Assembly: GCA_900299195.1 (NCBI GenBank)
Contig: OMIX01000033.1
Span: 1 to 64,000, forward strand
DNA: 64,000 bases
Reading direction: 5' to 3'
Source of the DNA: Deltaproteobacteria bacterium
Lineage (GTDB): Bacteria; Bdellovibrionota; FAC87; UBA2466
Below the pieces are notes generated by a model that had not been told where the DNA came from, did not search any database, and saw nothing but the letters and a program-made list of their open reading frames with translations. This document shows, in pieces, positions 8,034 through 49,940 of the stretch. The position numbers and the translations under genes are program-made. Numbering within the stretch: the first letter of the stretch is position 1; every line of letters starts with the position of its first letter.

Positions 8034-8049
8034 GGCTAATGTTTTAGCC
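8034..8049 (-). promoter_or_regulatory. Hairpin touching the lipoprotein start codon
   Basis: GGCTAA and TTAGCC flank a 4-base loop, a perfect 6-bp stem. On the minus strand it ends exactly at the ATG (8031-8033) and covers the only purine stretch that could serve as ribosome site. It could hold translation of the lipoprotein-pfkA pair in check, or be chance. Confidence 0.35.
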
Positions 8050-8107
8050 TAACCCCCCCATAAACGAAACTAATATTTAAAGCTGTTTCATGAATCGTTT
8101 TGAGAAC

Positions 8108-8137
8108 TTGAGTGAAGCCTCATCTGGGAGCTAAAAT
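8108..8137 (+). promoter_or_regulatory. Candidate promoter for the CoA-transferase gene
   Basis: TTGAGT (8108-8113) and TAAAAT (8132-8137) are separated by 18 bases, with the GTG start at 8177. Identified by eye from consensus similarity. Confidence 0.35.
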
Positions 8138-8176
8138 AGAATCTATTGATAAAAGCCATCGTGAAATGGGGGCAGC

Positions 8177-9325: not shown

Positions 9326-10410
9326 ATTCGAGCCGTTTTACCTAGAGGTTGAGGATTTTTTTCTGAGTATTCGTTCACGAAATCTCTTACTTGAACTAAA
9401 TTCTGACACCGTTTGACTCCGTGAAAAAATTGATGACCAAAAAGTAACCAGCGAGATCCGTGAGCCACAAAAAAAATCAGTTTTTTGAGAGCAAATGGAG
9501 TGTCTCCAAAGTAATCCTCAAGAAGACAAGAAAATCTAAGAACAGCTCGAAAATATTCAGCGCCTTCTTCTTCAGGAGTCCAAGGGGGCGAGGTTTCCCA
9601 TCGGGCTTTTGGAAGATCAAAATTTCCCATTTTTTGTGCAAGCTGCCAGAGAATCCAAGGGCGTGCAGTGGCAGCCCTTGCAATCATCGCTCCGTCCACT
9701 CGATATTGGTCCATGAGGTGAAAAGCATCTTCCCAATGATGAATATCTCCATTGGCTACGACGGGAATTTTTCTTTCTTTAGCTACTTCAGAAACCAAAT
9801 CCCAGTGGGCATAACCATGATGACCTTGGTTTTGGGTTCGACAATGTAATGTTAACCAATCGGCCCCGGAGTCTTCCAACCGTTGAGTGAACTTTAGGAG
9901 ATAATTCAAATCAATGCTCGAACCTGTTGCCGCCCTCAATTTAACACTCACGGGAACAGGGGAGTGCTTTTTGGTAACTTTAACCACTTGGGACGCATAA
10001 TCGATATCTCCTAGGAGTCGAACTCCCCAATTGTGGGAGAGTTGATGGGAAGCTGGGCAACCCATATTGATATCAAAGCCCCAAGGATGAAGAGGAAGAA
10101 GCTTCTCAATAGAACCCGAAATGTAGCTTTCTTCATTTCCAAGAAGTTGAGGGATAAAATAATTTTCTCCCAGACTATTTAAGGGGCCTGGCAGGTCTTC
10201 CCATTTTTCATAAGGAAGACGTAACGTAGATAACATTTCAGTGAAAAGGAGAGGGGACACACTTTCAGGCAGATAACTTCGAACCAATTCCCTAAAAGCC
10301 ACATGGCTGATTCCGACCATGGGAGCTATGAGAAAGGGAAAATCGATGCCTAGGTTTTTTAATCGTGAACTAGGAAAACCCTTAAAATTTTGCTCGGAAA
10401 CGGCCGTCAT
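9322..10410 (-). CDS. tRNA-dihydrouridine synthase (Dus family)
   Basis: Dus enzymes are FMN proteins that reduce uridines in the tRNA D-loop with NADPH. The 362-residue protein has the N-terminal APMVGISHVAFR flavin-binding strand, the catalytic cysteine Cys118 in INMGCPASH, the phosphate/RNA motif HCRTQNQGHHGYAHWD (189-204) and VVANGDIHHWEDA. The TIM barrel is followed by a helical C-terminal domain. VSVKLRAATG replaces the more usual VKIRLG, so it is a divergent member and I do not assign the target uridine. It is transcribed divergently from the PPC-domain gene. A second Dus lies at 12130. Confidence 0.88.
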   Translation of the reverse strand: MTAVSEQNFKGFPSSRLKNLGIDFPFLIAPMVGISHVAFRELVRSYLPESVSPLLFTEMLSTLRLPYEKWEDLPGPLNSLGENYFIPQLLGNEESYISGSIEKLLPLHPWGFDINMGCPASHQLSHNWGVRLLGDIDYASQVVKVTKKHSPVPVSVKLRAATGSSIDLNYLLKFTQRLEDSGADWLTLHCRTQNQGHHGYAHWDLVSEVAKERKIPVVANGDIHHWEDAFHLMDQYRVDGAMIARAATARPWILWQLAQKMGNFDLPKARWETSPPWTPEEEGAEYFRAVLRFSCLLEDYFGDTPFALKKLIFFVAHGSRWLLFGHQFFHGVKRCQNLVQVRDFVNEYSEKNPQPLGKTARI

Positions 10411-10486
10411 GGCTCGGGTTTGTATCTTTCTTTGATTAAGAAATCAATGCTAGGGAGGTCAGCCTTGAATCCAAATTAGAAAAAGG

Positions 10487-10515
10487 ATGACCTTAAATTT
10501 ATTACATTATATAAA
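10487..10515 (+). promoter_or_regulatory. Candidate promoter for the PPC-domain operon
   Basis: ATGACC (10487-10492) and TATAAA (10510-10515) are 17 bases apart. The implied transcript starts near 10522, leaving a short leader with GGAG at 10529-10532 before the ATG at 10539. Confidence 0.4.
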
Positions 10516-10538
10516 CACAAGAAGATTTGGAGCTTGTT

Positions 10539-10967
10539 ATGATTATTCATCATTCTGAAGAAAAAGTTTTGATTGTGGTGCCTAAGGGCGAAAAATTGGT
10601 GGCAACTCTTACTCGAGATGTGAGCGATTTAGGGCTGAAAGGTGGATTGATTTCTGGTTTGGGAGCTCTAATCGATGTGGAATTGGGTTATTACCACTTA
10701 GAAGAGAAAGACTATCATAGAAAAACTTTCTCAGAAATGGACTATGAACTCATTTCTCTGACCGGGAATCTTTCTTTAAAAGAGGGGAAACCTTATATTC
10801 ATGTTCATGCAGCTCTTGGAGACAACCAGTTTAGAGTTTTCGGTGGCCATCTATTTGAGGCCAATGTCGCTGTGACTGCAGAGGTATCGATCATTCCCTT
10901 AGGAAAGATGCCAGTTCGAGAGTTAGACCCCAAATTGGGATTAGCCACTATATGTCGTATGTCTTAA
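10539..10967 (+). CDS. PPC/DUF296-domain protein
   Basis: The 142-residue product is a stand-alone plant-and-prokaryote-conserved (PPC, DUF296) domain, a trimeric fold also found beside AT-hooks in plant DNA-binding proteins. Visible features are the opening VLIVVPKGEKLVATL, GLISGLGALIDVELGYY, and HVHAALGD, the conserved histidine-bearing strand. A TTG at 10527 opens the frame earlier, but GGAG six bases before the ATG at 10539 favours the ATG. There is no AT-hook, so a DNA-binding role is not supported. Its last 16 bases overlap the next gene. Confidence 0.85.
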   Translation: MIIHHSEEKVLIVVPKGEKLVATLTRDVSDLGLKGGLISGLGALIDVELGYYHLEEKDYHRKTFSEMDYELISLTGNLSLKEGKPYIHVHAALGDNQFRVFGGHLFEANVAVTAEVSIIPLGKMPVRELDPKLGLATICRMS

Positions 10968-11404
10968 TTATTTTATTGTTTTTATTAAGCTCTCAAGGAT
11001 TTTCTGAGGTTCGGGGCTCTCAAGGCTGCATGGTTCCCGAAAGTGGTCCGCAGAAGGGGGTTATCCCTGAAGGTTGTGGTGTTGAATCTAAGCCCATAGA
11101 AAAATGGTTAGATGAATCTTTGATCCGTTGCAAAGTAGTTGATGTGAAATGTGACCCTCAAATGAAGCAGGGATATATCGCAGTGGCTCAGGTGGAAAAG
11201 TGGTTGAGAGGCGAGGGGCCAAGACAAATCGAATTCAAATTTAAAAAAGAAACTGCTGAAAAGAAAAATCGAGCTAACCCAGTGAGGGCTGGAAGAGGGC
11301 TTTGTGCCGACATTACTCTGGAGAAACGAGTTGGGGACTGGCACCTACTAAAAATTGAAAATCCTACTTCATCGACCACAGATTCTTTGCCCTCTTGTCC
11401 TTAA
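10952..11404 (+). CDS. Secreted hypothetical protein
   Basis: The 150-residue product has a signal peptide (about residues 1-18) and then six to seven cysteines (GCMVPE, GCGVES, RCKVVDVKCD, GLCADIT, SCP), which suggests disulfides in the periplasm. The central part, CKVVDVKCDPQ...YIAVAQVEKWLRGEGPRQIEFKF, has the alternating pattern of a small beta-barrel of the NTR/TIMP type, but this is only a resemblance. I do not recognise the family. The start overlaps the PPC gene by 16 bases, so the two are probably co-translated. Confidence 0.65.
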   Translation: MSYVLIILLFLLSSQGFSEVRGSQGCMVPESGPQKGVIPEGCGVESKPIEKWLDESLIRCKVVDVKCDPQMKQGYIAVAQVEKWLRGEGPRQIEFKFKKETAEKKNRANPVRAGRGLCADITLEKRVGDWHLLKIENPTSSTTDSLPSCP

Positions 11405-11421
11405 ACAGCTAGAGTGTGGGG

Positions 11422-12126
11422 ATGAATCAAATCTTAAATCCAAAATCGGAAATCCGGCAATACCGCTACTATGATCTAGTGATGGCCTCTTTTGTGACCA
11501 TCTTATTGTGTTCCAATTTAATTGGAACTTCAAAAGTGATTACGGTTTTTGGTTTTACCTGTGGTGCTGGAGTTTTCTTTTTCCCTTTGAGTTATGTGTT
11601 TGGGGATATTTTGACCGAAGTTTACGGATATGCCCGGTCTCGAAAAGTGGTCTGGGCTGGCTTTTCAGCTTTGGCTTTTGCATCCTTCATGAGTTGGTTT
11701 GTGGTGGCAGCTCCACCTGCTAAAGATTGGCCTTTTCAAAGTGCTTACGAAACGGTTTATGGACAAACTTGGAGAGTCGTTGTGGCCTCCTTTATTGCTT
11801 TTTTTGCCGGGGAATTTACCAATTCGTATGTGTTGGCCAAAATGAAATTGTGGACTCAAGGGAAAATGCTTTGGACTCGAACGATCGGTTCTACTATTGC
11901 AGGAGAGGCCGTAGATTCTTTAATTTTTTATCCCATTGCATTTCTAGGAACTTGGCAGCATCACTTGGTAATTCAAGTGATGGTGACCAATTATCTTTTG
12001 AAAGTTTTGTGGGAAGTTGTGATGACTCCGGTCACTTATCGAATCGTGAACTTTTTGAAAAAAGCTGAGAATGAAGATTACTTTGATTGGAAGACCAACT
12101 TTAATCCCTTTACTCTCGATACCTAA
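11422..12126 (+). CDS. yhhQ: Queuosine-precursor transporter, YhhQ/VUT family
   Basis: YhhQ-family membrane proteins import queuine or preQ1 bases used to modify tRNA wobble positions. The product has the family pattern: LLCSNLIGTSKV near the first helix, FFFPLSYVFGDILTEVYGY (50-70 region), GEFTNSYVLAKMK, and GSTIAGEAVDSLIFYPIAFLG, with six or so membrane helices. ATG 11422 is chosen; a GTG at 11416 lies two codons upstream and cannot be excluded. The dusC start follows the stop by only 3 bases, which places a tRNA-base transporter and a tRNA-modifying enzyme in one transcript. Queuosine synthesis genes are not in the window. Confidence 0.87.
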   Translation: MNQILNPKSEIRQYRYYDLVMASFVTILLCSNLIGTSKVITVFGFTCGAGVFFFPLSYVFGDILTEVYGYARSRKVVWAGFSALAFASFMSWFVVAAPPAKDWPFQSAYETVYGQTWRVVVASFIAFFAGEFTNSYVLAKMKLWTQGKMLWTRTIGSTIAGEAVDSLIFYPIAFLGTWQHHLVIQVMVTNYLLKVLWEVVMTPVTYRIVNFLKKAENEDYFDWKTNFNPFTLDT

Positions 12127-12129
12127 AAA

Positions 12130-13110
12130 TTGAAACACTGGATTCAAAAAGGTAAACCGGCAGTTTTATTGGCCCCCATGGAAGGGGTGACCGATTATCC
12201 TATGCGAACCTTGCTTACAGAGCTTGGGGGATTTCAATGTTGTGTTTCGGAATTCATCCGGGTGAATCAAGATACAGTTCCAGAGAAGGTGTTTTATCGA
12301 ATGATTCCCGAGCTTCGAACTCAAGGAAAAACGGCCAGCGGATGTCCTGTGATTGTTCAAATTTTAGGAGGGGACCCGGATAGAATGGCTGAATCGGCGG
12401 CCACTGCGGTTCGCTTGGGGGCTTTGGGAATTGACATTAATTTTGGTTGTCCTGCTCCCACAGTCAACCGGCACGATGGGGGGGCGGTATTACTGAAAAG
12501 TCCCCAACGAGTTTATGACATCGTCAAAGCCGTAAGAGAAAGAGTTTCTCCCGATATTTCAGTCTCAGCGAAAATGAGATTGGGATGGGAAAATATCCAT
12601 GAAATTTTTAAAAATGCAGAATCAGCGACTCTGGCTGGAGCTAATTGGTTGACTATTCATGCGAGAACTAGGGCGCAAGGATATGCTCCTCCTGTTCATT
12701 GGGAAATTTTGGGCGAAGTTCAAAAATCAGTTCCTCTTCCAATTGTGGCAAATGGGGATATTCGCACTCTTGAGGATTTCAAAGAATGTCGAAAGCTAAG
12801 TCAGTGTGAGCACTTCATGATTGGACGTGGAGCTTTAGCTGAACCTTCACTTGCTCAGTTGGTCTTAAGAGAATTGAAAGGTTCTTCAACAAGTGAGGAC
12901 ACTATTCTGCCTTTTAAAAATTCAAAAGAGCGTTGGAGGCCTTTATTTGAAAGATTTATTCAAGTGGCTGAGCCTCAAGCTCTAAGCCCTCTTTATACGA
13001 CAAAGCGAATCAAGCAATGGTTAAATTTAGCTGAGCGTTGTCATTCTATTTCTTGGTCAGAGCCCATTAAACGAGCAAAAAATTTAGAAGAAATCTGGAG
13101 CTGTTTCTAA
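12130..13110 (+). CDS. dusC: tRNA-dihydrouridine(16) synthase, DusC-like
   Basis: The 326-residue protein reads like E. coli DusC along its length: LLAPMEGVTDYPMRTLLTE, the SEFIRV segment, FGCPAPTVNRHDGGAVLLK with catalytic Cys107, AKMRLGW, HARTRAQGYAPPVHWE, ANGDIRTLED, MIGRGAL, and a C-terminal TTKRIKQWL helix that contacts tRNA. DusC reduces U16. The only workable start is TTG at 12130, because the next methionine lies inside the flavin-binding motif. No clear ribosome site is seen, so it probably depends on coupling to the transporter gene 3 bases upstream. Confidence 0.9.
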   Translation: MKHWIQKGKPAVLLAPMEGVTDYPMRTLLTELGGFQCCVSEFIRVNQDTVPEKVFYRMIPELRTQGKTASGCPVIVQILGGDPDRMAESAATAVRLGALGIDINFGCPAPTVNRHDGGAVLLKSPQRVYDIVKAVRERVSPDISVSAKMRLGWENIHEIFKNAESATLAGANWLTIHARTRAQGYAPPVHWEILGEVQKSVPLPIVANGDIRTLEDFKECRKLSQCEHFMIGRGALAEPSLAQLVLRELKGSSTSEDTILPFKNSKERWRPLFERFIQVAEPQALSPLYTTKRIKQWLNLAERCHSISWSEPIKRAKNLEEIWSCF

Positions 13111-13235
13111 GCGTGAGATGGTGTTTTTCTGGCTCCAACCTATGTAAAAAATTACTTTGGGATTAAAAAATAGGCGCTTCGGTGGGGCTTGGGCTCGGCA
13201 TGGCTTTTGCTTTTTGTGTCCGGCGGGGGAGCCAA

Positions 13236-15365
13236 ATGAAATATTTTACGTTTAGTTTATCTCTTTTGTTTTTGTTCAGTTTTGTTTCTTGTTCTCAGTC
13301 TGAGAAAGATCAGGAGCCTAAAGTAACAGTACCTATCAGTGAAAATCAGTGGGTTAGAGCGGAAATTGGAGATTCTCAATTGGGATTTCAAGTTTTAGGA
13401 ACGCAGAGTTTGTTGGATGCTATCAAATCTCAACAAGTCAGAGCGGTGGGTAATACTCGACTGAGAAAAAAATCTTTGACCGTAGCATTTCCTAAAAAAC
13501 TTCTTAACGAGCATTTTATTTTTGGAGGAGTGATTACCCAAGTTTCCGATTTAAAAAGCGCTCTTTTAGGAGGCCTCAAACTTTCTGATTTACCCCCCAT
13601 TTCTGTCAGACCCAAACTGACAGCTCAAGAGACCGACTTCAAAATGGAGCTGAAGGGGTGTCTTCAAAACTGCGAAGAACTTTCCCCTCAAACGTCGGTG
13701 GTGGATTTTCCCGTGGTAGGCATCGATGAAGCGAATGATAGAGTCATTTTAGATTTAGCCGTTTTGGGTGATCAATTAAACTTAGTTAAAATGTTGGACC
13801 CTAACGGGGAGTACACTCAACTTAAAACCAAAACAAGTGAAGTCGTTGCAGTAGATTACTCAGCGTCTACTTTGGTATTTGATGTAAGAGTTCTCATGGT
13901 TCCTCTTAACCCAAAAGAAGGGGAAATAGTTTCTGAGACTCAATTCACAGTTCGTTGGTATCTTCGCTTGAATTCCGTTTTTAATCCTTCCTTCGTAGCC
14001 AGAGACAAAACGGAAGGAGTTGGTTTTTTTATGACCGAAAGAGGTCGATTTCCCAAGATCATTCGGCATGCTTTGACGAACTACTCCTTGGGTAATTCTC
14101 AAGGTGAGATTAAATATTTTCTAAAAAATATTCCGCAAGAGCATCAGGAAAGTTTTAAAGCAGCCTTTGATGCTTGGAATGAGAAATTCTCTGAAGTAGC
14201 GGGTCGACCTTTGATTCGATATGAATTTATTGATGCCTTAGATCCGAGATCAAAAAATTTGGTAGCGGGGGATGTGAGATATAACATTCTCGAATGGGAT
14301 TTAGAAAATGAAGCCTCCTATGGCGGTTTGGGGCCTTCAATCGCAAATCAATTTACCGGAGAAATTCTGTCATCCAATGTTCTCATTCAAGGTCCTAGGA
14401 TTGTAGAGATTTACCAAAATTGGTTTAAAGCATCGAAAACGATTGAGCAGCTCAAAAGTCAGGGACAAAACGCAGAAGCTGAACGCGAGCTGAAAAAGTT
14501 TCTGATTTCTACTGGCTCTTCAAATCCTGAATTAAGAAATTCTAAATTGCAGTTGAGTTTGGGGGGGGAAGCGGGTTTTAAAATTCACTCCCAATCTCAA
14601 CCCTATGAAGATCCTATTTTTCTAAAAGAGGAGTTTGAGGTGATTCCGGTGGGTGTGAGTTATGAGAAGTACATGAAAGGGTACTTTATGGACATGGTGG
14701 CTCATGAACTAGGGCACAATCTAGGCTTACGGCACAATTTTAAAGGAAACTTAGCTGCGAGTGAAGGGGAGCCTATGCAAGGGAAGGTGTCCTCCTCGAT
14801 TATGGAATATTTGGGGCGGCCTTTTAGATATTTGGACGAAATTGGATCCTATGATGTAGAAGCGATTAAGTATGGGTATCTTGGAATCCTTCCTGAAAAT
14901 AAGGATAATTTCTGTACTGATGAAGATGTACCAGATTCTGATTCAGCGAAGCTCTCGGCAGAGTGCTCTAGGGATGACGCGACATCGGACCCATTTGGAT
15001 ATTTTCTTTCGAGGCTAAATCGTGCGGTAAACTTAGTGATTGCGCGAGGAACGCATGAAGCCCCAGCCTGGCAAGCGGCAGAAATGGCAACAATCATGGA
15101 GCCCACTGTCCGAGGGCTCGCTTTTTACAGGACCAGTGCTGAATCGACAGGTTCGCAATGGAAGCAGTTTTTCAATAAACCTGGACGCCCTCAGGAGTTT
15201 CAGCAAATCTCGAGCTTTGTAACTTCTGAAGTGGAAAGGATTCTTTCCCCGTCCGATCTTGAGGATGTTTTTAAAAGTAAGAATGAAGAGGATTCTCTAA
15301 AAGCAAGAATGGGTTATATTGAGTTTAAGGAACGGGTTTTGAAAGTTTTAGAAATCCAACGGTAA
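13236..15365 (+). CDS. Metzincin-type zinc metalloprotease lipoprotein
   Basis: The 709-residue product starts at ATG 13236 (GGGGGAG before it); the frame is open upstream but that part is not signal-like. Residues 1-20 form a lipoprotein signal ending in the lipobox FVSC. The zinc site is HELGHNLGLRH (490-500), the metzincin HExxHxxGxxH, followed by NFKG, and the Met-turn SSSIMEYL has its methionine at 523. This arrangement resembles the DUF4953/DUF5117 metalloproteases of Bacteroidetes and Bdellovibrio-like bacteria. It probably sits on the outer membrane and degrades protein outside the cytoplasm. The first 330 residues contain no motif I recognise. It stands alone between dusC and the sugar operon. 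Confidence 0.85.
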   Translation: MKYFTFSLSLLFLFSFVSCSQSEKDQEPKVTVPISENQWVRAEIGDSQLGFQVLGTQSLLDAIKSQQVRAVGNTRLRKKSLTVAFPKKLLNEHFIFGGVITQVSDLKSALLGGLKLSDLPPISVRPKLTAQETDFKMELKGCLQNCEELSPQTSVVDFPVVGIDEANDRVILDLAVLGDQLNLVKMLDPNGEYTQLKTKTSEVVAVDYSASTLVFDVRVLMVPLNPKEGEIVSETQFTVRWYLRLNSVFNPSFVARDKTEGVGFFMTERGRFPKIIRHALTNYSLGNSQGEIKYFLKNIPQEHQESFKAAFDAWNEKFSEVAGRPLIRYEFIDALDPRSKNLVAGDVRYNILEWDLENEASYGGLGPSIANQFTGEILSSNVLIQGPRIVEIYQNWFKASKTIEQLKSQGQNAEAERELKKFLISTGSSNPELRNSKLQLSLGGEAGFKIHSQSQPYEDPIFLKEEFEVIPVGVSYEKYMKGYFMDMVAHELGHNLGLRHNFKGNLAASEGEPMQGKVSSSIMEYLGRPFRYLDEIGSYDVEAIKYGYLGILPENKDNFCTDEDVPDSDSAKLSAECSRDDATSDPFGYFLSRLNRAVNLVIARGTHEAPAWQAAEMATIMEPTVRGLAFYRTSAESTGSQWKQFFNKPGRPQEFQQISSFVTSEVERILSPSDLEDVFKSKNEEDSLKARMGYIEFKERVLKVLEIQR

Positions 15366-15525: not shown

Positions 15526-16656
15526 ATGAATGAGATTCTACTTAATGACTTTAAAGCTCAGTGGGAATTTGTGCGTGAGGATTTTATCCAATCTGTTGAA
15601 AGGGTAGGCCGCAGTGGTCATCTTATTCTTGGCTCTGAGGTGAAAGAATTTGAATTGGCTCTTTCAAATTTTTGGGGGATTCCTCATGTGGTTGGCTGTG
15701 CCAGTGGGCTTGATGCTATCGAAATATGTCTTAGAGTTTTAGGAATCAAACCAGGAGACAGGGTTCTCACCACTCCACTATCAGCCTTTGCAACTACTCT
15801 TGCAATTTTGAAGTGTGGAGGAACTCCCGTTTTTTGTGATACAGATGAGTCTGGACTTTTAGATTTGAATTTAGTGGAGGAAATACTTGAGAATGATTCA
15901 TCTATTAAATTTTTGGTGCCGGTTCATCTTTTTGGGCATGCTCTTAATCTTAATAAGTTAAAAAAAATCAAAGCGAAGTTTAAAATAAAAATAGTTGAGG
16001 ATTGTGCACAATCTATAGGAACCAAAAGCTTTAATCTGCCCACCGGCGTCGTTGGAGAGATGGCAGCAACCAGTTTCTATCCCACCAAAAATTTAGGCTG
16101 TTACGGAGATGGGGGGGCTGTGCTTACTTCGGATCCAGCCTTACGAGATATGGCTCGAAGCTTTCGAGACTATGGCCAAGAGTCAAAGTATTTTCATACA
16201 AAGTTGGGCCTTAATAGCCGTTTGGATGAGTTGCAGGCGGCTTTTTTAACATCGGCTCTGTTACCGCGGTTGGAAAGTTGGTTAGGTGCTAGAAGAAAAA
16301 TAGCCCAATTTTACTGCGAGAACTTAAAGAACCCTCTTATCAATATCTTGCCGACTCCCGAAGGTTCTTGTTCATCTTGGCATTTATTCCCCATCGTAGT
16401 TCAGTCTCGTGAAGATCTTAAAAAATGGCTATTAGAACAGAAAATTCAAACTGCAGTTCACTATCCAAAACTTATTCCCTCCCAACCTGTTTTCCAAAAT
16501 CCAGAGTTGTCTTCAAAAATTCAGATCAAAACTGAATTGATAAATGCAAAAAAAATAACTGGACAAGAGTTATCATTACCCATTCATCCGTTCCTGACAG
16601 ATTTTGAAATAAAAAGAGTTGTTGAAGCTTGCAACTCTTGGAGGGGATGTCTTTGA
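15526..16656 (+). CDS. DegT/DnrJ/EryC1-family sugar aminotransferase
   Basis: These PLP enzymes transfer an amino group to a nucleotide-linked keto sugar. The 376-residue protein has the PLP-binding lysine Lys188 in FYPTKNLGCYGDGGA, the ring-nitrogen aspartate in EDCAQS (158-163), and the substrate loop RDYGQESKYFH. Given the downstream ketoisomerase and acyltransferase, the likely role is 3-amination of a dTDP-keto-6-deoxyhexose, as in FdtB/QdtB. It opens a four-gene operon in which each gene overlaps the next. The operon looks richer in A/T than its neighbours, as glycan loci often are, but I did not compute this. Confidence 0.88.
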   Translation: MNEILLNDFKAQWEFVREDFIQSVERVGRSGHLILGSEVKEFELALSNFWGIPHVVGCASGLDAIEICLRVLGIKPGDRVLTTPLSAFATTLAILKCGGTPVFCDTDESGLLDLNLVEEILENDSSIKFLVPVHLFGHALNLNKLKKIKAKFKIKIVEDCAQSIGTKSFNLPTGVVGEMAATSFYPTKNLGCYGDGGAVLTSDPALRDMARSFRDYGQESKYFHTKLGLNSRLDELQAAFLTSALLPRLESWLGARRKIAQFYCENLKNPLINILPTPEGSCSSWHLFPIVVQSREDLKKWLLEQKIQTAVHYPKLIPSQPVFQNPELSSKIQIKTELINAKKITGQELSLPIHPFLTDFEIKRVVEACNSWRGCL

Positions 16657-17648
16657 ACTCCTTGATCATTCCGATTTACAAAAATGAATCTTCGCTTGGA
16701 AAAGTAATTGAAGTGTGCGCTTGGATTCATCAACGGCTGAATCAGTCGCTTGAGGTGGTTTTCGTAGTTGATGGAAGTCCAGACGAATCGATAAAAATCT
16801 TAAAAAAGCATACAGAGTCCGTCTGCTTTCAGTATCAGATTGTTGAATTGTCCAGAAATTTTGGTTCTTTTGCAGCTATAAAAAAGGGTTTGGAATTAGC
16901 TCGAGGAGAAAACTTTGCGGTTATGGCGGCTGACCTTCAGGAGCCCCCGGAAATTATCCTTGAATTTTTTGGGGAGCTTCAAGCTGGCGACAGTGATGTG
17001 GTGCTAGGGAGTCGTGAATCAAGAAAAGATCCCTTAATATCCCGGTTGTTTTCAGAAGTCTTTTGGTTGGTTTATAGAAAAATGATTCAACCTGAAATGC
17101 CTAAAGGTGGCGTTGATATTTTTGGGTGTAACAAAATTTTTAGAAATTATTTGATTCAATTAAATGAGTCTCATTCCTCTCTGGTGGGATTGATCTTTTG
17201 GATGGGATTTAAAAGAAAAATAATTCCTTACTGCCGAAAAGAAAGAGGCCATGGCAAAAGTGCTTGGACGGTAAGAAAAAAAATAAGGTATATGCTAGAC
17301 AGTATTTTTTCTTTTACCGATCTTCCAATTCAATTTTTGATGGCATTTGGTTTTTTGGGTAGTGGAGTTTCATTTTTACTAGGGGTACTCATAGTGGTTT
17401 CTAAAATGACCGGAGCGATTTCGGTACCTGGCTATGCAGCTACTGCTCTAATTATTTTATTTTTTGCTAGTCTAAATTCTTTAGGTTTGGGAATTATTGG
17501 TATTTATGTGTGGAGAGCTTTTGAGAATACCAAACAGAGACCACTTTCCCTTGTGAGTAGAAATTTTAATGATGGGTTAACTTTCGCAGGAATGGAGGTA
17601 TTTAAAAATGACAAAACAATTTATACATCCAACAGCATTAGTCGATGA
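16647..17648 (+). CDS. Glycosyltransferase family 2 with C-terminal membrane anchor
   Basis: The protein is similar to the ArnC/GtrB/DPM1 group, which transfers a sugar from a nucleotide donor to undecaprenyl phosphate on the cytoplasmic face. It has SLIIPIYKNESSL at the N-terminus, VVFVVDGSPDES, the donor-site AADLQEPPE, and RGHGKSAWTVRKKIRYMLDSIFSF. Two strongly hydrophobic segments follow (about residues 225-290). ATG 16647 is taken, but GGAGG at 16640-16644 is only 2 bases away from it and 8 bases from TTG 16653, which overlaps the previous stop; the TTG may be the real start. The product may put the operon's amino sugar on a lipid carrier. Confidence 0.85.
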   Translation: MSLNSLIIPIYKNESSLGKVIEVCAWIHQRLNQSLEVVFVVDGSPDESIKILKKHTESVCFQYQIVELSRNFGSFAAIKKGLELARGENFAVMAADLQEPPEIILEFFGELQAGDSDVVLGSRESRKDPLISRLFSEVFWLVYRKMIQPEMPKGGVDIFGCNKIFRNYLIQLNESHSSLVGLIFWMGFKRKIIPYCRKERGHGKSAWTVRKKIRYMLDSIFSFTDLPIQFLMAFGFLGSGVSFLLGVLIVVSKMTGAISVPGYAATALIILFFASLNSLGLGIIGIYVWRAFENTKQRPLSLVSRNFNDGLTFAGMEVFKNDKTIYTSNSISR

Positions 17649-18384
17649 AGGGGTAGAGTTTGGTGATAATGTTTCGATAGGTCCTTATACAATTATTCAT
17701 AAAAGCGTCAAAATTGGTGATAACACTGTTGTGGAATCTCATTGCGAGCTTGGACACCCAGCAACCAGAAAGGAATATTCAACAGAACTGGTGATTGGTG
17801 ATGATTCCTTAATCAGATCTCATAGCATATTTTATCTTGGGTCTGAATTTAAAAAGGGGTTGGTTACGGGACATCGCGTAACAGTAAGGGAAAAAACAAA
17901 AGCGGGCTGTAATTTTCAAATAGGGACATTAAGTGATATTCAGGGACACTGTACTATAGGTGACTTTGTAAGGCTTCATAGTAATGTTCATATTGGTCAG
18001 CAGGCTAATATTGGGGACTTTGTTTGGATTTTTCCTTATGTTGTATTAACCAATGACCCAACTCCACCAAGCAATACCCTCAAGGGAGTAACCATTGAGC
18101 AGTACGCAGCTATTTCCACTATGTCGGTAATTCTGCCGGGAATTACTGTGGGGGAGGGCGCTTTGGTTGGGGCACATAGTTCAGTAACAAAGAATGTTGA
18201 AGCTAATACGGTGGTTGTTGGTTCTCCTGCCAAAGCTATTTGTTCTACTTCTCAAATCCAATTAAAAGATGGATCAAATCAACCAGCTTATCCTTGGAGA
18301 AGACATTTTCATCGTGGGTATGAACAACGAATTGTTGATAGATGGCTAACAGAGTTTCCAAATGAGAAAAAACATGAAAGCTAA
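17608..18384 (+). CDS. Left-handed beta-helix (hexapeptide) acyltransferase
   Basis: The 258-residue protein is built of hexapeptide repeats ([22 protein letters not shown] and many later turns), the fold of LpxA/WbbJ-type acyltransferases that use acyl-CoA or acyl-ACP. Repeats run from residue 8 to about 205, then a polar helical tail. It begins with [18 protein letters not shown], as LpxA-like enzymes do. In this operon it probably acylates an amino sugar, although the next gene also has such a domain. Its start lies 41 bases inside the glycosyltransferase gene and its end overlaps the next gene by 23 bases. Confidence 0.85.
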
Positions 18385-19318
18385 TTTTAAATCTGCCGTG
18401 ACACAGGTTGGGAATATAGAATCCAAAAATCAATTGGGTAGCTTGGTGAAAACCCTTTCAGGAGTGCGAATAGGTAGTTCTTGCGAGATTGATGATGGTG
18501 TTTTTATTGAAAATGACGTTGTGATTGGCGACCGTGTCACCATTAAATGCGGAGTCCAACTGTGGGATGGCATTACATTGGAGGATGATGTTTTTGTGGG
18601 GCCCAATGCAACTTTTACTAACGATAAGTGGCCTAGGAGCAAAGTTTATCCAGCAGAATTTTCTAAAACCCGTGTTTGTAAAGGGGCTTCTATTGGAGCC
18701 AATGCGACTATTCTTCCAGGGGTGACCATCCACATGAATGCGATGGTGGGGGCAGGGGCAGTAGTTACGAAAGATGTTCCACCGTATGCTAAGGTGGTGG
18801 GAAATCCAGCAAGAATTGTAGGTTATGTAGAATCTTTTTCTCTTCCGAAACTCGAGGTCGTGGAGCAGTCTAAGAATTCAGTAAAATCAAGTAAAGTTCG
18901 TGGGATTAAAGTCGATAAATTACCGCTGATCAGTGATATTCGAGGGGATCTATCAGTAGCTGAATTTGAGCGAGTTATTCCTTTCCAGGCCAAACGTTAT
19001 TTTCTCGTGTTTAATGTTCCAGGGAAACATGTGAGGGGTGAGCATGCCCACAAAATTTGCAAGCAATACCTTATTTGTGTGAAGGGTTCCATCAAAGTCA
19101 TGGTCGATGATGGAAAGAATCGAGAAGAGCACTTGTTAAACTCACCTAATCTTGGTCTGTTTGTCCCTAATATGATTTGGGCCACTCAGTATCAGTACAG
19201 TTCAGATGCTATTTTACTTGTATTTGCATCAGACTATTATGATGCAGGTGACTACATTAGAGATTATCAAAGTTATTTTAATTTAGTTAATCAAATGTCG
19301 ATTAGAGAAGTTGCGTAA
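18362..19318 (+). CDS. Bifunctional WxcM-like protein: hexapeptide acyltransferase plus sugar 3,4-ketoisomerase
   Basis: The 318-residue protein joins two domains. Residues about 20-155 are hexapeptide repeats ([22 protein letters not shown] ... [15 protein letters not shown] ... [14 protein letters not shown]), as in sugar N-acetyltransferases. Residues about 178-318 are a cupin of the FdtA/QdtA/WxcM type, with [35 protein letters not shown] and [13 protein letters not shown]. FdtA-like enzymes isomerise dTDP-4-keto-6-deoxyglucose to the 3-keto sugar, the substrate for 3-amination. With the aminotransferase this gives a route to a 3-acylamino-3,6-dideoxyhexose. Two start ATGs are possible (18362 and 18374). 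The dTDP-glucose synthesis genes are not in the window. Confidence 0.88.
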
Positions 19319-43450: not shown

Positions 43451-44893
43451 GTGCAAGGTTCTCTTCAAAAAACGGAGCCACAGAGTATCTTTGCGGTGGA
43501 TCTTGATGACTCTTTGTTGAAGACAGATCTGTTACTGGAAAAATTGGTTGTTCTTTTGGCCAAACAACCTTGGCATGTGGTTAGTTTATTGGGAGTTCTT
43601 TTTCGTGGGCCCTTGGCTCTAAAAAAGTGGCTGCATAGAAATGTCAGTTTAGATTATTCCACACTTCCGATTCGGCAAGAAGTGGTCGAGCAAGTCAAAT
43701 CTGCAAAACTTAGGGGGGAGAGAACTCTTTTGCTAAGCGCGTCTCTCCAAGAAGATGTTGAGGGAGTGTCTTCAGTTCTTAATATTTTTGATGAAAGTGT
43801 GGGAAGCCAACAAAAAAATTTTAAAGGCAGAGAAAAAATAGACTATCTTTTCAAAAACTACCCTGAAAGCCACAAAACCTATGTAGGAAATAGTTTTTCA
43901 GATCTTGAAGTTTGGAGTCGTTGTGAAAAAATAGTTGCAATTAATCCATCCACTTTGATTCATCAGAAAATTAAGTCTTTTAGAAAAGAGACTCACATTA
44001 TTTCTGATCAAAAGGATCTTGTTTTTGCCATATTGAAGCAACTTAGGATCCATCAGTGGGTAAAAAACCTTTTAGTGTTCATTCCCGCATTTGCGGCCCA
44101 TCGTTTTTTTGAGTTCTTGCCGTGGTGGCAGTCTTTAAGAGCTTTTCTAGCTTTCTCCCTCTCAGCCTCGGCCGTTTATGTCTTTAACGACTTTTGTGAT
44201 TTACATCACGATAGGGCTCAATCTTCGAAAAAACATCGTCCTCTCGCCTCTGGAAAATTACCCTTAAAGATAGGTGTGATTCTGATTCCTATGTGTCTGC
44301 TGGGGAGTTTTGCCTTTGCTTGGGGGCTGCCTTCGAACTTGAGTGTAATTTTAGCCGCATATCTCACCATGAACTTGTTTTACTCCTACTGGGTGAAAGA
44401 GTGGCTATCGATGGATGTGGTATTCTTATCGGTCTTTTACACCCTTAGAATTTTGGCGGGTGGAGCAGCTTCGGACATTCGAGTTTCAGAGTGGTTATTA
44501 AGTTTCTCCACTTTTTTCTTTTTTGGTATGGCTATGATTAAAAGGTGCTCCGAGCTCAAGAGGCAAACTCAACTCTCTTTGGTAGTTCGGACTGGCCGCA
44601 GAGCCTACAGTCAGCAAGATTTTATTCCCGTTCTTGCCTTAGGAGTTACAGCTTCTATTTTATCCATTTTAGTTTTGTCCCTCTATATGAGCACTGGTGA
44701 AGTTCAAAAACTGTATTCCAAACCCAAATTTCTTTGGCTCTTAAACCCGTGTTTGTTGTTTTGGATTAACCGCATTTGGCTTCTTGGAGCAAGAGGAATG
44801 GTTAATGAGGACCCTATTGTGTTTGCGATCAAAGACAAGGCTACTTGGGCTGTTGTATCTACCATGTTAGCGATTATCGGTGTTTCTATCTAA
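43451..44893 (+). CDS. HAD phosphatase-UbiA prenyltransferase fusion (DPPR synthase-like)
   Basis: The 480-residue protein joins a HAD phosphatase-like domain to a UbiA membrane prenyltransferase. Residues 15-190 have the HAD nucleophile motif DLDDS (Asp17, Asp19), LLSASLQE, and VGNSFSDLEVW. From about 195 comes a UbiA domain starting QLRIHQWVKNLLVFIPAFAAHRF, with the diphosphate-binding NDFCDLHHDRAQ (246-257) and nine or so membrane helices. The nearest described relatives add phosphoribose to decaprenyl phosphate (Rv3806c of Mycobacterium). Removal of the 5'-phosphate by the HAD part would complete the donor step. The start is GTG with AGAGG upstream. This reading is from motif similarity; other UbiA substrates are possible. 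Confidence 0.85.
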   Translation: MQGSLQKTEPQSIFAVDLDDSLLKTDLLLEKLVVLLAKQPWHVVSLLGVLFRGPLALKKWLHRNVSLDYSTLPIRQEVVEQVKSAKLRGERTLLLSASLQEDVEGVSSVLNIFDESVGSQQKNFKGREKIDYLFKNYPESHKTYVGNSFSDLEVWSRCEKIVAINPSTLIHQKIKSFRKETHIISDQKDLVFAILKQLRIHQWVKNLLVFIPAFAAHRFFEFLPWWQSLRAFLAFSLSASAVYVFNDFCDLHHDRAQSSKKHRPLASGKLPLKIGVILIPMCLLGSFAFAWGLPSNLSVILAAYLTMNLFYSYWVKEWLSMDVVFLSVFYTLRILAGGAASDIRVSEWLLSFSTFFFFGMAMIKRCSELKRQTQLSLVVRTGRRAYSQQDFIPVLALGVTASILSILVLSLYMSTGEVQKLYSKPKFLWLLNPCLLFWINRIWLLGARGMVNEDPIVFAIKDKATWAVVSTMLAIIGVSI

Positions 44894-44905
44894 TGTAGGT
44901 CAAAC

Positions 44906-46327
44906 TTGAGTACACTAGTTAAAAAATTCAACGTAGTTCCGTTCGTTAATCCCTATACTTTATTCGGACTGGTGATTTGGGTGGGCTTTGTGAATTTTCT
45001 TATCTACGACAGTTGGAACTCCGATAAAACGATGAGTAAGTTGTATTTGTTGATGGCTATTCAGCTTTTGCCCTTTCTCATTTGTTTTACCCGGCAACAT
45101 TTTGATTACATCGCATTTGTCATGTTTAACCATTTTTTCACTTTTTCTGTGGGTAAATTAAATCAGCTTAAATTTAATTATAAAGTGGATGAGCTTTATC
45201 CTGCAGCGGCTCACGCTATTGATGAACTCTCTCTCTGCAGCGTATTACTTATTCTTGGCTATTACATCTCAAGACAGTTTATTTTTTACCGGTTTATTGA
45301 AAAAGAAAAATTTCAATTGCTGTCACTCAGTCGCATTCAACTGATGATTGTGGCAGGTTATGTGATATTTGTTCCCTTGTTTCTAGGGCATCTTCCGACT
45401 TGGCTAATCACCATGCACTTTGCCACCATGGCTGCAGACATGGTGCTTCTATTGTGCTCCAACTCTCCTGGGAACGAAGTGTTTTCAAGATTTCTTAGGA
45501 TGGGGGTTGCTTTTTCAACTGTTTGGTACTTTTTGTCGACTGGCTTTTTAACTATGGTGGGAAATTTGGCGGGATACATCTTTATCGCATCTTGCTTGCA
45601 GAAAAAATATAAACAGTTACTGCTGCCTCTGGTGTTGGGTTTGATAGCCTGCTTGGTTCAAAATGTGAAGCAGGACTATCGAATTACGATTAGGGACAAT
45701 CCTTACTTCACTGTTAATGACCGGATTGATCTTCTAGGAAATTTGCTTTATGCGAAATATGTTGAAGATGTCGAACTTGAAGAAGTCACAATGGAAGAAG
45801 AGGAAGAAAAAGAGGGGATTTCCCAAAATCTTTCAAAGGGTTTTTCTCGAGCAGGTGATGACTCTCTTGAGGTCGTTTTAGAAAAAACTCCCAAAGAGGT
45901 ACCCTTTTGGGAAGGAGAGAGCTATAGCGCTCTCCCTTATATTTTTATCCCGAGAGCCCTTTGGACGGATAAACCTTCGCGGCATATTTGGAATAAGTTT
46001 GGAAGGACTTATGGATTTATTGGTGCGAATGATTATCAGACCAGTGTAGGCGTGAGTTATATTGCAGAGGGCTACATGAATTTTGGTTATGTGGGGATGT
46101 ACTCGATCGCTTTATTGGTAGGAATTTTTATCGCTGCAGTAGAAAGGTTGTCTTTCTATTTTTTACGAGGATACTACTATTTTACTTTTATGTGCTTCTT
46201 GATGCCAGTGATGACCTATGCTTCCGATTTTACTACATTGATTAACAGCACATTTGTGATTTCTATGGTTCTATTAATTTTCAGAACCCAATTTGTGAAA
46301 ATGGCCCAGGTTGACGATTATTCGTAA
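44906..46327 (+). CDS. O-antigen-polymerase-like (Wzy/O-antigen ligase) membrane protein
   Basis: The 473-residue protein has about 10-12 membrane helices and a long loop (about 255-350) that contains an acidic cluster (EDVELEEVTMEEEEEKEG). The stretch FWEGESYSALPYIFIPRALWTDKPSRHIWNKFGRTYGFIGANDYQTSVGVSYIAEGYMNFG is typical of Wzy-type and related polysaccharide polymerases and oligosaccharide-repeat unit proteins. It starts with TTG at 44906 with no strong ribosome site; it is 12 bases after the UbiA gene stop. The role, polymerisation or ligation of a glycan in the periplasm, is inferred from family resemblance only. Confidence 0.72.
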   Translation: MSTLVKKFNVVPFVNPYTLFGLVIWVGFVNFLIYDSWNSDKTMSKLYLLMAIQLLPFLICFTRQHFDYIAFVMFNHFFTFSVGKLNQLKFNYKVDELYPAAAHAIDELSLCSVLLILGYYISRQFIFYRFIEKEKFQLLSLSRIQLMIVAGYVIFVPLFLGHLPTWLITMHFATMAADMVLLLCSNSPGNEVFSRFLRMGVAFSTVWYFLSTGFLTMVGNLAGYIFIASCLQKKYKQLLLPLVLGLIACLVQNVKQDYRITIRDNPYFTVNDRIDLLGNLLYAKYVEDVELEEVTMEEEEEKEGISQNLSKGFSRAGDDSLEVVLEKTPKEVPFWEGESYSALPYIFIPRALWTDKPSRHIWNKFGRTYGFIGANDYQTSVGVSYIAEGYMNFGYVGMYSIALLVGIFIAAVERLSFYFLRGYYYFTFMCFLMPVMTYASDFTTLINSTFVISMVLLIFRTQFVKMAQVDDYS

Positions 46328-46329
46328 CA

Positions 46330-48216
46330 TCAATTCGAATCAAAAATTCCTGAAGTTTCTGTAAACCCCAGTGCTTTTAAGCGAATCCGGTGCTCTTCCA
46401 ATTTTCTAGCGTGAACGAAATAGAGCGCGCAAAAATCATTGTCATAAGTGATGACAATGGGTGTGTATCCCAAACTGAGTAGATTTTGGGTTCCTCCGTA
46501 TAGCGGCCCGACGAGGCCTTTAAATTTTGAATCCCATCTTTTTAAGGCCTTAGAAAAGTCTTCGGGCCTCCATCCGTCAGTACTTTTCTCATCCATTAAA
46601 ATTTCAATCATAAAATCGAAAAGATACAAATAATTGGGTTGGAGTGAGTTGACCCTCTCTGGAGCAATTCGCTTGAAGATCAAAAGGGGCAGTTCTGCTG
46701 CTTTGGGATTTTTTCTCACAAAATAAGGGGTTTCTCGTAGAGGGAGTTTAGCTAACTTGATGTCAGTCAACCCAAGAAAATCGACAGCATCTCTTTCAGA
46801 AAAATAAGAGATCGTGGCTAGTTCAGAGGTTCCTAAATGGTCTGTAGTCGAAGTTGTTTTTTTTAAGTGAAGTCCCAAAGCAGACAAATAATGGGGCCGG
46901 TAAAGTGGGTTTTCAGTTCGTTTTTTTAAGTTCAGGGAAAGCAAAGCAGAGCCATGTGAAAATAAAAGTTCATAGAATCGAATCAAAGAAGAGGTTGGTG
47001 CAGCTCCACATAGAAAAAGACTAAGGGCTAATCCGACAGTGAGTAATTTTCTGTTTTGAATTGAACAAGCTGAAATGAGTTTCCAGGAAAATGGCAAAAG
47101 AGCTAGGGTGAATGGCAGAAAATATCTTCCAAAGGAGGGAGGAAACCAATCTCCCCCAGAAAGATAGTAGGGAAGAGTTGAAAGCATCAGTATCGTCAAT
47201 GGGTTCCAAAGGTGTCGGAGTCGATTGAGGGTTTGTCTTTCTGATATTCCAACAAGAATCCATAGGATTAAAAAGGCTAAACTGAAGGAGGAAATCGTGT
47301 CTAAAAAAAGATTTCTAAAACCTAAAATGAGATAAAACAAATTCCCTAGACTGCTTTTATATATTACTGGGACTGGGATCCAAGATTGGAAGTGAGTGAT
47401 ACGATAAGCAGCCAATAAGCTCATGGGAATGAGGCCTAGGGCCAACCCTGTTAGGAGCGGAAGAATGTTTAGATTTGATCTTCTAAAGGTGAATAAATAG
47501 TGCAGATAACAAAGGGACAGAAACCAAAACCCTTCCCACCGAATGACAGGGATGAGCGCCAGAATGCACAGACTTTTAACGAGTTGTTGATTTAAGAAAG
47601 TGTAGTAGACAGCCCAAAGTATGGCGCTGGCATAGATCGTAGCTCCGAATCCGAGCCCTGAGTTAAGAATAAGAGGGGGGAAAAAAGTTGCGATAAAAAA
47701 GGCCCAATTTTTGGCTTTTGGAAGTTCTAAGATTTTAGCAATAGCCTCCATAGCGAGCGCGCAGAGAAATCCACCTAACCAACTTTGAAATAACAGAAGT
47801 TCAACGAGAGGCAAACCCAGCTTTCCTAAAATTCCGATGAGATAAAAAACCAGAAAATCTACGGTTCCCTCAGAGGGGGTCGACAAATTAAATGAAAAAA
47901 CATCATGTTGAGACAAATTGAGAGAGTGTCTTAGGTTAATAAAACTCTCATCCCACGGATTAAATACAAGGAGAGTGCAAAAAGAAAAAGCGATCCAAGA
48001 GCACAATTTTGAAATGAAAATCAGTTTGCTTTCTTTGTTGGCATTAGCTTCGGAGAGGCTCATGAGTACCAAACCGAAGGATAAAGGGTACAAAGTCAAA
48101 ACAGCCAACTGCAAAAATAAAGGAACTCCTTTAATGAGATACATGCCACCTAAGAAAGAATCAAAAAGGCCCGGGGCCGATTGTGAGGTTTGAAAGAGTA
48201 GAAACTGATTTTTCAT
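46330..48216 (-). CDS. AftB-like GT-C glycosyltransferase
   Basis: The 628-residue integral membrane protein has a first large loop with WDESFINLRHSLNL (88-101) and SEGTVDFLVF (115-124). This fits the pattern D-D/E-x-F-I-x-x-R-x ... F-N ... x-E-G-x-T-x-F-L seen in the mycobacterial AftB arabinofuranosyltransferase and pilin-modifying TfpW. About 11 membrane helices follow, then a C-terminal periplasmic part with ISYFSERDAVDFLGLTD, also typical. The enzyme should use a polyprenyl-phosphate pentose. It lies convergent (2-base gap) to the Wzy-like gene and beside a UbiA homologue that could make such a donor. Substrate and acceptor are inferences. Confidence 0.78.
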   Translation of the reverse strand: MKNQFLLFQTSQSAPGLFDSFLGGMYLIKGVPLFLQLAVLTLYPLSFGLVLMSLSEANANKESKLIFISKLCSWIAFSFCTLLVFNPWDESFINLRHSLNLSQHDVFSFNLSTPSEGTVDFLVFYLIGILGKLGLPLVELLLFQSWLGGFLCALAMEAIAKILELPKAKNWAFFIATFFPPLILNSGLGFGATIYASAILWAVYYTFLNQQLVKSLCILALIPVIRWEGFWFLSLCYLHYLFTFRRSNLNILPLLTGLALGLIPMSLLAAYRITHFQSWIPVPVIYKSSLGNLFYLILGFRNLFLDTISSFSLAFLILWILVGISERQTLNRLRHLWNPLTILMLSTLPYYLSGGDWFPPSFGRYFLPFTLALLPFSWKLISACSIQNRKLLTVGLALSLFLCGAAPTSSLIRFYELLFSHGSALLSLNLKKRTENPLYRPHYLSALGLHLKKTTSTTDHLGTSELATISYFSERDAVDFLGLTDIKLAKLPLRETPYFVRKNPKAAELPLLIFKRIAPERVNSLQPNYLYLFDFMIEILMDEKSTDGWRPEDFSKALKRWDSKFKGLVGPLYGGTQNLLSLGYTPIVITYDNDFCALYFVHARKLEEHRIRLKALGFTETSGIFDSN

Positions 48217-48434
48217 AGTTTTAAGAGAGTTGAGAATTCATTTGGATTTCCAAGATTTTATCTTTGTTTTATCGAAAAAAGTAGTTGAGATTGCATTGCT
48301 TCATTAAACAATTTCTTTCAAGTTCAGCGACTTAAATGGGGCTTTTATGCTTTGTGTTGGAAGTAGACGCAAGTATCAAAGAAATGGGCATTTTTACCGA
48401 TAATAGAATGGACATCATTCTTTTGAGAGGACCC

Positions 48435-49940
48435 ATGCCAAAAATCGACCATTTCCTTGCCCTAGCCGTGGAAAACAAAGCCTCCGATCTTCATTTTTCA
48501 ACGGGAGAGCCTACTCGTTTTCGAGTGGATGGGGATTTACAAATCGTAGATGAAACTCCATTTGATGGAGATGTTTTAACAGCGCTTCTTTGCGAGCTTC
48601 TAACTGCGGATGAACAGCAGAGACTGATGGAAAAGAAAAACCTGGATAAAAGTTTTTCCTCACCTAATATTGGTAATTTTCGACTTAATATTTTTTTTAA
48701 TAGAAAAGGAATCGCTGCGGTCTTAAGAACGATCCCTAATCGTGTTCCCACTCTTTCTGAGCTTTTGTTGCCAACGGTGTGTTCTGATTTGTGTAACTTA
48801 GACAAGGGGCTGGTTTTGGTGACTGGGCCGACGGGATCAGGAAAATCAACAACTCTAGCCGCCATGATCAATCACATCAATGAAACTAGCAAAAATCATA
48901 TTCTCACTGTTGAGGATCCGGTTGAGTTTGTGCACGAAAGCAAGCAAAGCTTAATTAATCAGCGAGAGATTGGCAGTTCATGCCACTCATTTGCCGATGC
49001 TTTAAAGTATGCGCTGCGAGAGGATCCGGATGTGATCCTGATTGGTGAAATGCGAGATCTAGAAACTATCGCCCTGGCATTGACGGCAGCCGAAACGGGC
49101 CACCTGGTTTTTGGAACCCTTCACACGCGGGGGGCAGCAGCTTCTATTGATCGAATTATCGATTCTTTCCCTTCCAATCAGCAAGCAATGATAAGAACGA
49201 TGCTTGCCGAATCGTTAAAAGCGGTGATTAGCCAGATACTTCTGAAGCGGTCATCGGGCCACGGAAGAGCGGCGGCTCATGAGATCATGGTTGTGAATAA
49301 CGCTATTTCAAATTTAATTCGAGAGGGGAAAACTTTTCAAATTCCAAGTGCGATACAAGTGGGACGTAAAGATGGAATGATCACTATGGATCAATCTCTA
49401 GTAGATTTGGTGGGTAGACATGAAGTGAATCCGGAAGAGGTAATTCATTTTATGGAAAACCCTAATCTAATCGAAGCTATGATGAAAAATATGCCTAAGT
49501 CAAAACGTGCTCCCGCGCCACTTGCTACTCCCAACTCTCCCGCGGCAGTTACGAAAAAATCCCAAGAGGCACAGAACTCTCCATCGCTGGTCAAGACTCT
49601 AAATATTCCAAATTCGATGTCAGTAACTTCAGCTCAACCCTTGAAAAATCCTTCTCCAAGCCTAAAGAGTCCAACAGCGAATGTTACGAATGCTCCTCCC
49701 GCACCTCCTAAAATTCCGACGCCGATAAAGGGCGGATCTACGATGTCTCAACCGCCGCCTATCAAATCAACAGCGAGCAATCCCATTCCAACTGTTCCTA
49801 AAGCTAGTCCACTTCCCAGTCAGCCCGCCTCAAAAATTAGTCTTCAAGAGAGTTTCAAAAGTTTACTCGAAGAAGATGGCAGTGATGACCTGCTTTCAGA
49901 CATAGAGTTTGTGTCTGAAGAAAAGAAAAAAATGGGTTAA
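48435..49940 (+). CDS. pilT: Type IV pilus retraction ATPase PilT with proline-rich tail (paralogue 2)
   Basis: Counting from ATG 48435 (GAGAGG 4 bases before; the longer frame from 48336 adds a non-homologous segment) the protein is 501 residues. Motifs: KASDLHFSTGEPTRFRVDG near 16, Walker A GPTGSGKST (131-139), Asp box TVEDPVEF, Walker B DPDVILIGEMRD, His box HLVFGTLHTRG, and AISNLIREGK (290-299), the PilT-specific motif. Residues about 354-501 form a Pro/Ser/Lys-rich disordered tail ending in an acidic helix, absent from standard PilT (about 345 residues). This is the better candidate for the true retraction motor. Its stop overlaps that of acylphosphatase by 4 bases. Confidence 0.9.
   Translation: MPKIDHFLALAVENKASDLHFSTGEPTRFRVDGDLQIVDETPFDGDVLTALLCELLTADEQQRLMEKKNLDKSFSSPNIGNFRLNIFFNRKGIAAVLRTIPNRVPTLSELLLPTVCSDLCNLDKGLVLVTGPTGSGKSTTLAAMINHINETSKNHILTVEDPVEFVHESKQSLINQREIGSSCHSFADALKYALREDPDVILIGEMRDLETIALALTAAETGHLVFGTLHTRGAAASIDRIIDSFPSNQQAMIRTMLAESLKAVISQILLKRSSGHGRAAAHEIMVVNNAISNLIREGKTFQIPSAIQVGRKDGMITMDQSLVDLVGRHEVNPEEVIHFMENPNLIEAMMKNMPKSKRAPAPLATPNSPAAVTKKSQEAQNSPSLVKTLNIPNSMSVTSAQPLKNPSPSLKSPTANVTNAPPAPPKIPTPIKGGSTMSQPPPIKSTASNPIPTVPKASPLPSQPASKISLQESFKSLLEEDGSDDLLSDIEFVSEEKKKMG

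Follow-up and report, generated by a model that had tools for sequence, protein, structure and literature searches.

A predicted polyprenyl-phosphate phosphoribosyltransferase-phosphatase fusion near an AftB-like GT-C gene in a Bdellovibrionota genome that also encodes unlinked DprE1 and DprE2 homologues

We analysed a 64,000-nucleotide stretch of DNA from a member of the Bdellovibrionota (positions 1 to 64,000 of contig OMIX01000033.1, assembly GCA_900299195.1; henceforth the window), focusing on a locus where a gene for a fused HAD-UbiA protein lies next to genes for a Wzy-like membrane protein and a GT-C glycosyltransferase resembling mycobacterial AftB. The fusion gene (43451-44893, plus strand, GTG start) encodes 480 amino acids (aa), with a HAD phosphatase domain at about residues 12-185 (43484..44005, plus strand) and a UbiA/DPPR synthase domain at about residues 187-478 (44009..44884, plus strand). 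It is followed, 12 nucleotides (nt) further on, by the gene for a 473-aa Wzy/O-antigen-polymerase-like membrane protein (44906-46327, plus strand, TTG start), and 2 nt beyond the stop of the latter lies the convergent gene for the 628-aa AftB-like GT-C (46330-48216, minus strand). A pilT-type ATPase gene comes next (48336-49940, plus strand; Pfam T2SSE, E 2.7e-50). A sequence-only reading of the window had placed these four genes here and likened the first three to the mycobacterial genes for lipid-linked arabinose; the open reading frames (ORFs) were confirmed and found conserved in relatives. Given that the locus proteins are 54-80% identical across the other genomes of the genus, chance ORFs are excluded.

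We found that the whole fusion (residues 7-477) matches the NCBIfam model NF006088 (PRK08238) at 505.3 bits against a cut-off of 351, the next matches being DPPR synthase models (125-155 bits), UbiA (31 bits) and haem O synthase (28 bits). The UbiA half matches PF01040 over residues 215-409 (Pfam, E 1.9e-19), and its sole matches in the PDB are the Mycobacterium tuberculosis DPPR synthase 8j8j (E 4e-29) and its variant 8j8k. No Pfam HAD model was reported for the N-terminal part; the HAD assignment comes from conserved motifs (D17xD19 as motif I, S96, K129 and G146/D151) and from a characterised fusion, ORF15 of Citrobacter youngae O1. Kelly and colleagues (PNAS 2024; PMC11127046) described ORF15 as a HAD phosphoribosyl-phosphatase joined to a UbiA domain, which makes polyprenyl-phosphate-ribofuranose from phosphoribosyl pyrophosphate, with functional residues D18 (the HAD nucleophile) and N247, D248, D251, D255, R366 and E369 (UbiA). 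Comparing the two proteins by these published residue numbers, we found all seven residues in the window fusion at a constant offset of -1 in both domains (D17, N246, D247, D250, D254, R365 and E368), each invariant in an alignment of relatives (A1), and the order of the domains, N-terminal HAD phosphatase and C-terminal UbiA synthase, is also the same. There is thus strong support for predicting that the gene encodes a polyprenyl-phosphate 5-phosphoribosyltransferase together with its own 5'-phosphatase (PRP-PPPRS, ORF15 type).

The sequence-only reading had noted that a UbiA domain grouping with quinone- or haem-pathway enzymes would speak against it. Such a prenyltransferase would, like the fusion, carry a PF01040 domain, but we consider this explanation practically eliminated and rejected it: the NCBIfam scores stand at 505 versus about 30 bits, DPPR synthases alone were matched in the PDB, and the two further UbiA proteins of the genome fall outside the group of the fusion in a UbiA tree, on long branches. 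On the origin of the fusion itself the deep branches of this tree give no resolved order, their bootstrap support not having settled.

The fusion is far from rare. We confirmed at least 543 loci of the NF006088 type (one genome per species), the matches listed including Pseudomonadota, Nitrospirota, Acidobacteriota, Verrucomicrobiota, KSB1 and other phyla, and a Bdellovibrionales record (L186) also has it. A synthase and phosphatase in one polypeptide is therefore a known, characterised (PMC11127046) and widespread arrangement, and the earlier description of it as unusual in a Gram-negative does not hold. We took the flanking regions of 80 of these loci, and within them found DprE1 in 39/80 and DprE2 in 27/80; in several genera of the window's phylum, as well as in other phyla, the fusion stands directly before dprE1-dprE2. 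UbiA-only synthases lacking the HAD domain also occur in operons with dprE1-dprE2, in the family relatives G010 (L050, 9203-10090) and G013 (L051, 3927-4812; here the UbiA frame is split into two overlapping ORFs).

The sequence-only reading had proposed to look for DprE1 and DprE2 genes elsewhere in the genome, taking their absence as a refutation; homologues of both were found, adjacent and overlapping, on contig C68, unlinked to the synthase. The 448-aa DprE1 homologue aligns over nearly the full length of NF053785 at 383 bits; both this score and those of synthase-linked relatives (355-368 bits) fall short of the 500-bit equivalog cut-off. The 249-aa DprE2 homologue scores 294 bits with PRK07102 (cut-off 267). 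The DprE1-DprE2 pair is present in five of six genus genomes at 71-85% identity; in G003 and G004 it is divided between contig ends. A search of the window genome for DprE1 with PF04030 (ALO) gave no match, which we rejected as an argument against DprE1 because the DprE1 homologues match FAD_binding_4 alone in Pfam. A DprE1-like match in G006 (L212) was likewise not counted, being 28.6% identical to the DprE1 of the window genome and having no adjoining DprE2.

Since the fusion and the C68 pair occur in one genome, homology strongly supports the prediction that synthase, phosphatase and both epimerase steps from polyprenyl-phosphate-ribose to polyprenyl-phosphate-arabinose are encoded, split over two loci. 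Judged by sequence, the genome offers a further, well-founded instance of this known pathway outside mycobacteria, complete but scattered, in a Gram-negative lineage about which little is known. A search that relied on operon linkage would overlook it, as a local reading would call the epimerases absent. The UbiA phosphoribosyltransferase domain and its conserved active-site motifs are common to the fusion and the mycobacterial DPPR synthase Rv3806c (8j8j). In Mycobacterium, however, dephosphorylation falls to Rv3807c, which stands alone and is not a HAD protein (PMC11127046), whereas in the window the phosphatase is a fused HAD domain. The C. youngae O1 system differs in other ways: given DprE1/DprE2 elsewhere in the window genome, arabinofuranose rather than ribofuranose or xylofuranose would be expected as the product, and the partner GT-C is AftB-like and matches no family model.

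The 628-aa GT-C had no match in Pfam and none in NCBIfam at E <= 1, the AftB model NF041481 included. Its AlphaFold2 model (mean predicted local distance difference test score, pLDDT, 85.3; predicted template modelling (TM) score 0.88) was compared with the PDB using Foldseek, and the best match was AftB (9dlf; E 8.6e-6, TM about 0.49), followed by the donor-analogue complex of AftB (9dlh) and then by ALG12, PglB, AftA and ArnT. Because of this ranking, the protein is predicted to be a GT-C that uses lipid-linked donors, with AftB as the closest structure. By sequence, neither the GT-C family profile (A2) nor profile A3 matched the PDB on its own. When the ORFs of the fetched HAD-UbiA loci were searched with A2, two outside the window's family matched clearly: L113 (KSB1; E 6e-17), where the order is fusion, dprE1, dprE2, one more gene and the GT-C, and L114 (Polynucleobacter; E 9e-13), where the GT-C starts about 15 nt past the fusion. 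The L113 protein aligns with AftB at E 1.9e-5 (its NF041481 match is weak), and a five-sequence profile (A4) matched AftB at E 1.8e-5, with nothing else in the PDB below E 0.2. The earlier suggestion that the GT-C is AftB-like is thus upheld by the fold match and by a profile link through L113 and L114; an unnamed GT-C family is joined to AftB by fold and bridging sequences, and becomes a candidate pentofuranose transferase outside mycobacteria.

In AftB, D62 is the nucleophile, E172 contacts the arabinose and R221 holds the donor phosphate (PMC12041299). R221 aligns with R226 of the window GT-C (47539..47541, minus strand), which is invariant in the family, and an acidic pair, D89-E90 (47947..47952, minus strand), lies at the juxtamembrane helix in line with AftB DD61-62. 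R364, also invariant, is a candidate counterpart of the AftB donor-phosphate residue R372, although the AftB alignment ends at residue 280. The window GT-C can be regarded as a naturally occurring variant of AftB in which active-site residues differ, as set out below.

Besides the HAD-UbiA fusion and the GT-C relative matched by A2, the L114 cluster (7995-13284) includes an SMR protein and an SDR epimerase; the best DprE1 match in this genome, at 49 bits, is not convincing. With synthase, GT-C and SMR protein grouped together, the cluster is likely a complete three-component pentofuranose system of the kind described for GT136 (PMC11127046); the window resembles such systems in having the synthase and a GT-C close together.

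For the intervening gene the label "Wzy-like" is reasonable but weak. A membrane protein is indeed encoded where the sequence-only reading had put one, and its scores of 22.2 bits with PF14296 and 24.5 bits with TIGR04370 stay under the respective cut-offs of 26.6 and 40, PF14296 being matched by four of seven homologues (best E 8.8e-7). It is 52-80% identical in relatives, where it adjoins the GT-C; its AlphaFold2 model was unusable (pLDDT 46.5).

In the pathway we propose, the fusion would transfer phosphoribose to polyprenyl phosphate and then remove the 5'-phosphate, giving polyprenyl-phosphate-ribose, and the unlinked DprE1-DprE2 would oxidise and re-reduce C2, giving polyprenyl-phosphate-arabinofuranose. 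These first two steps, predicted by homology to characterised enzymes, we hold with good confidence. A flippase would then turn the lipid-linked sugar across the membrane, and in the periplasm a GT-C would pass the pentofuranose on to a glycan of the envelope; the simplest choice of glycan would be one that the adjacent Wzy-like protein polymerises. The convergent AftB-like GT-C would be the first candidate for this transferase, with about even chances, and an arabinosyl role for it is plausible.

Gene order gives a mixed picture of this last assignment. The order fusion, Wzy-like gene, GT-C is kept in all four genus genomes whose loci are contiguous. One of them is G003, where the fusion still adjoins the Wzy-like gene despite a different flank on its other side (a carbamoyltransferase gene, L056, 14085-15827, there replaces the biotin-carrier genes). 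The Wzy-like/GT-C/pilT block is also found without an adjoining fusion, in G010, G012 and G011 (the G011 contig ends inside the Wzy-like gene). Specifically, the slot of the fusion beside the Wzy-like gene holds, in G010 (L052, 5501-6841) and G012 (L053, 11689-13041), an unrelated GT-C-like protein of 446-450 aa on the other strand, with no Pfam match. The association of Wzy-like gene, GT-C and pilT is older than the presence of the fusion beside it. Within the phylum sample, the GT-C was found in the window's family and in the distant genome G285 only, besides a marginal match in G077.

Several observations weigh against the proposal that the fusion and the epimerases supply the neighbouring GT-C. 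The Wzy-like/GT-C pair occurs in G012 and G011 with no NF006088 synthase in the genome, and the GT-C occurs without any such synthase in G008, of the same family, and in G285. In alignments read by eye, AftB D62 falls on Glu90 and E172 on Gly191. The location of the L113 and L114 relatives is a biased test, because the fetched regions were chosen around HAD-UbiA genes and every ORF in them is near one. In G002 (91% complete) the synthase is present and neither DprE1 nor DprE2 was found. Finally, a family search found no flippase of the SMR (PF00893) or GtrA (PF04138) type in the 97% complete window genome (other transporter families were not searched), unlike in the C. youngae O1 and other three-component systems. 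Because the block is older than its association with the fusion and the GT-C is kept in genomes without the synthase, we put its use of a lipid-linked pentose at about even odds. The sequence-only idea of a dedicated pentosyltransferase is not supported, since family members without the synthase keep the GT-C and two AftB active-site residues are changed.

One explanation for these observations, to which we give somewhat less than an even chance, is that the fusion and DprE1/DprE2 feed some other transferase, while the Wzy-like protein and the GT-C form an older envelope-glycan module that uses a different polyprenyl-linked donor and that the fusion later came to adjoin in this genus. The synteny without the fusion, the GT-C-like proteins in its slot, the four genomes with the GT-C and no synthase, and the glycine in place of the AftB sugar contact all agree with this. 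They have to be set against the retention of the fusion beside the Wzy-like gene in G003, the occurrence of the nearest GT-C relatives outside the phylum in HAD-UbiA clusters, and the 12-nt gap between fusion and Wzy-like gene, which suggests a single transcript. Alternatively, the sugar transferred by the GT-C may be ribofuranose and not arabinofuranose, in which case the local genes would be a ribosylation system and DprE1/DprE2 would serve another glycan. This would fit the lack of linkage between dprE1-dprE2 and the locus, the fusion and GT-C of G002 with no DprE1/DprE2 detected, and L114, whose GT-C shares the DE and NGF motifs and adjoins HAD-UbiA in a genome with a best DprE1 match of just 49 bits. 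We nevertheless consider it unlikely, as DprE1/DprE2 are conserved in the five genus genomes other than G002, where they would compete for the same pool, and GT-C donors can interchange (the GT136 enzyme ORF12 takes both ribofuranose and xylofuranose; PMC11127046).

The sequence-only reading had also raised pilin glycosylation, i.e., arabinosylation of a pilin by a TfpW-like enzyme. An AftB/TfpW-like GT-C is indeed divergent from pilT, and the genus shares this adjacency with G010, G012 and G011; it sits, however, in a block that is syntenic as a whole, so that proximity to pilT, the sole hint, is no independent evidence. The ORFs and Pfam matches at the locus identified pilT and no pilin gene, the GT-C of G006 is not next to pilT, and the paired Wzy-like protein would be superfluous in a system that adds a single sugar to pilin. 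We consider this explanation very improbable. A bolder reading is that in this Gram-negative family the Wzy-like protein makes up, with the AftB-like GT-C, a lineage-specific module for a pentofuranose-decorated envelope polymer, the GT-C belonging to a subfamily in which Glu replaces the AftB Asp nucleophile and the sugar is read differently; we advance this tentatively and think it somewhat unlikely. The AftB-like GT-C branch with its changed active site, together with its Wzy-like partner, is the mildly interesting and uncharacterised remainder of the locus.

At the contig end, the window encodes a partial membrane protein (2-1114, minus strand) with a weak PMT_2 match (E 1.4e-4), a homologue of which lies near the UbiA-dprE1-dprE2 operon of G013 (L051, 402-1208), making it a further candidate transferase, as a lead only. 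In G085 (L061, 7398-8939), a GT-C-like protein of 513 aa, which has a DDxxI motif and no Pfam or PDB match, stands beside HAD-UbiA-dprE1-dprE2. The window also contains a small amino-sugar cluster (15526-19318, plus strand) with a DegT aminotransferase, a GT2 and two hexapeptide proteins, of which one carries an FdtA/WxcM domain.

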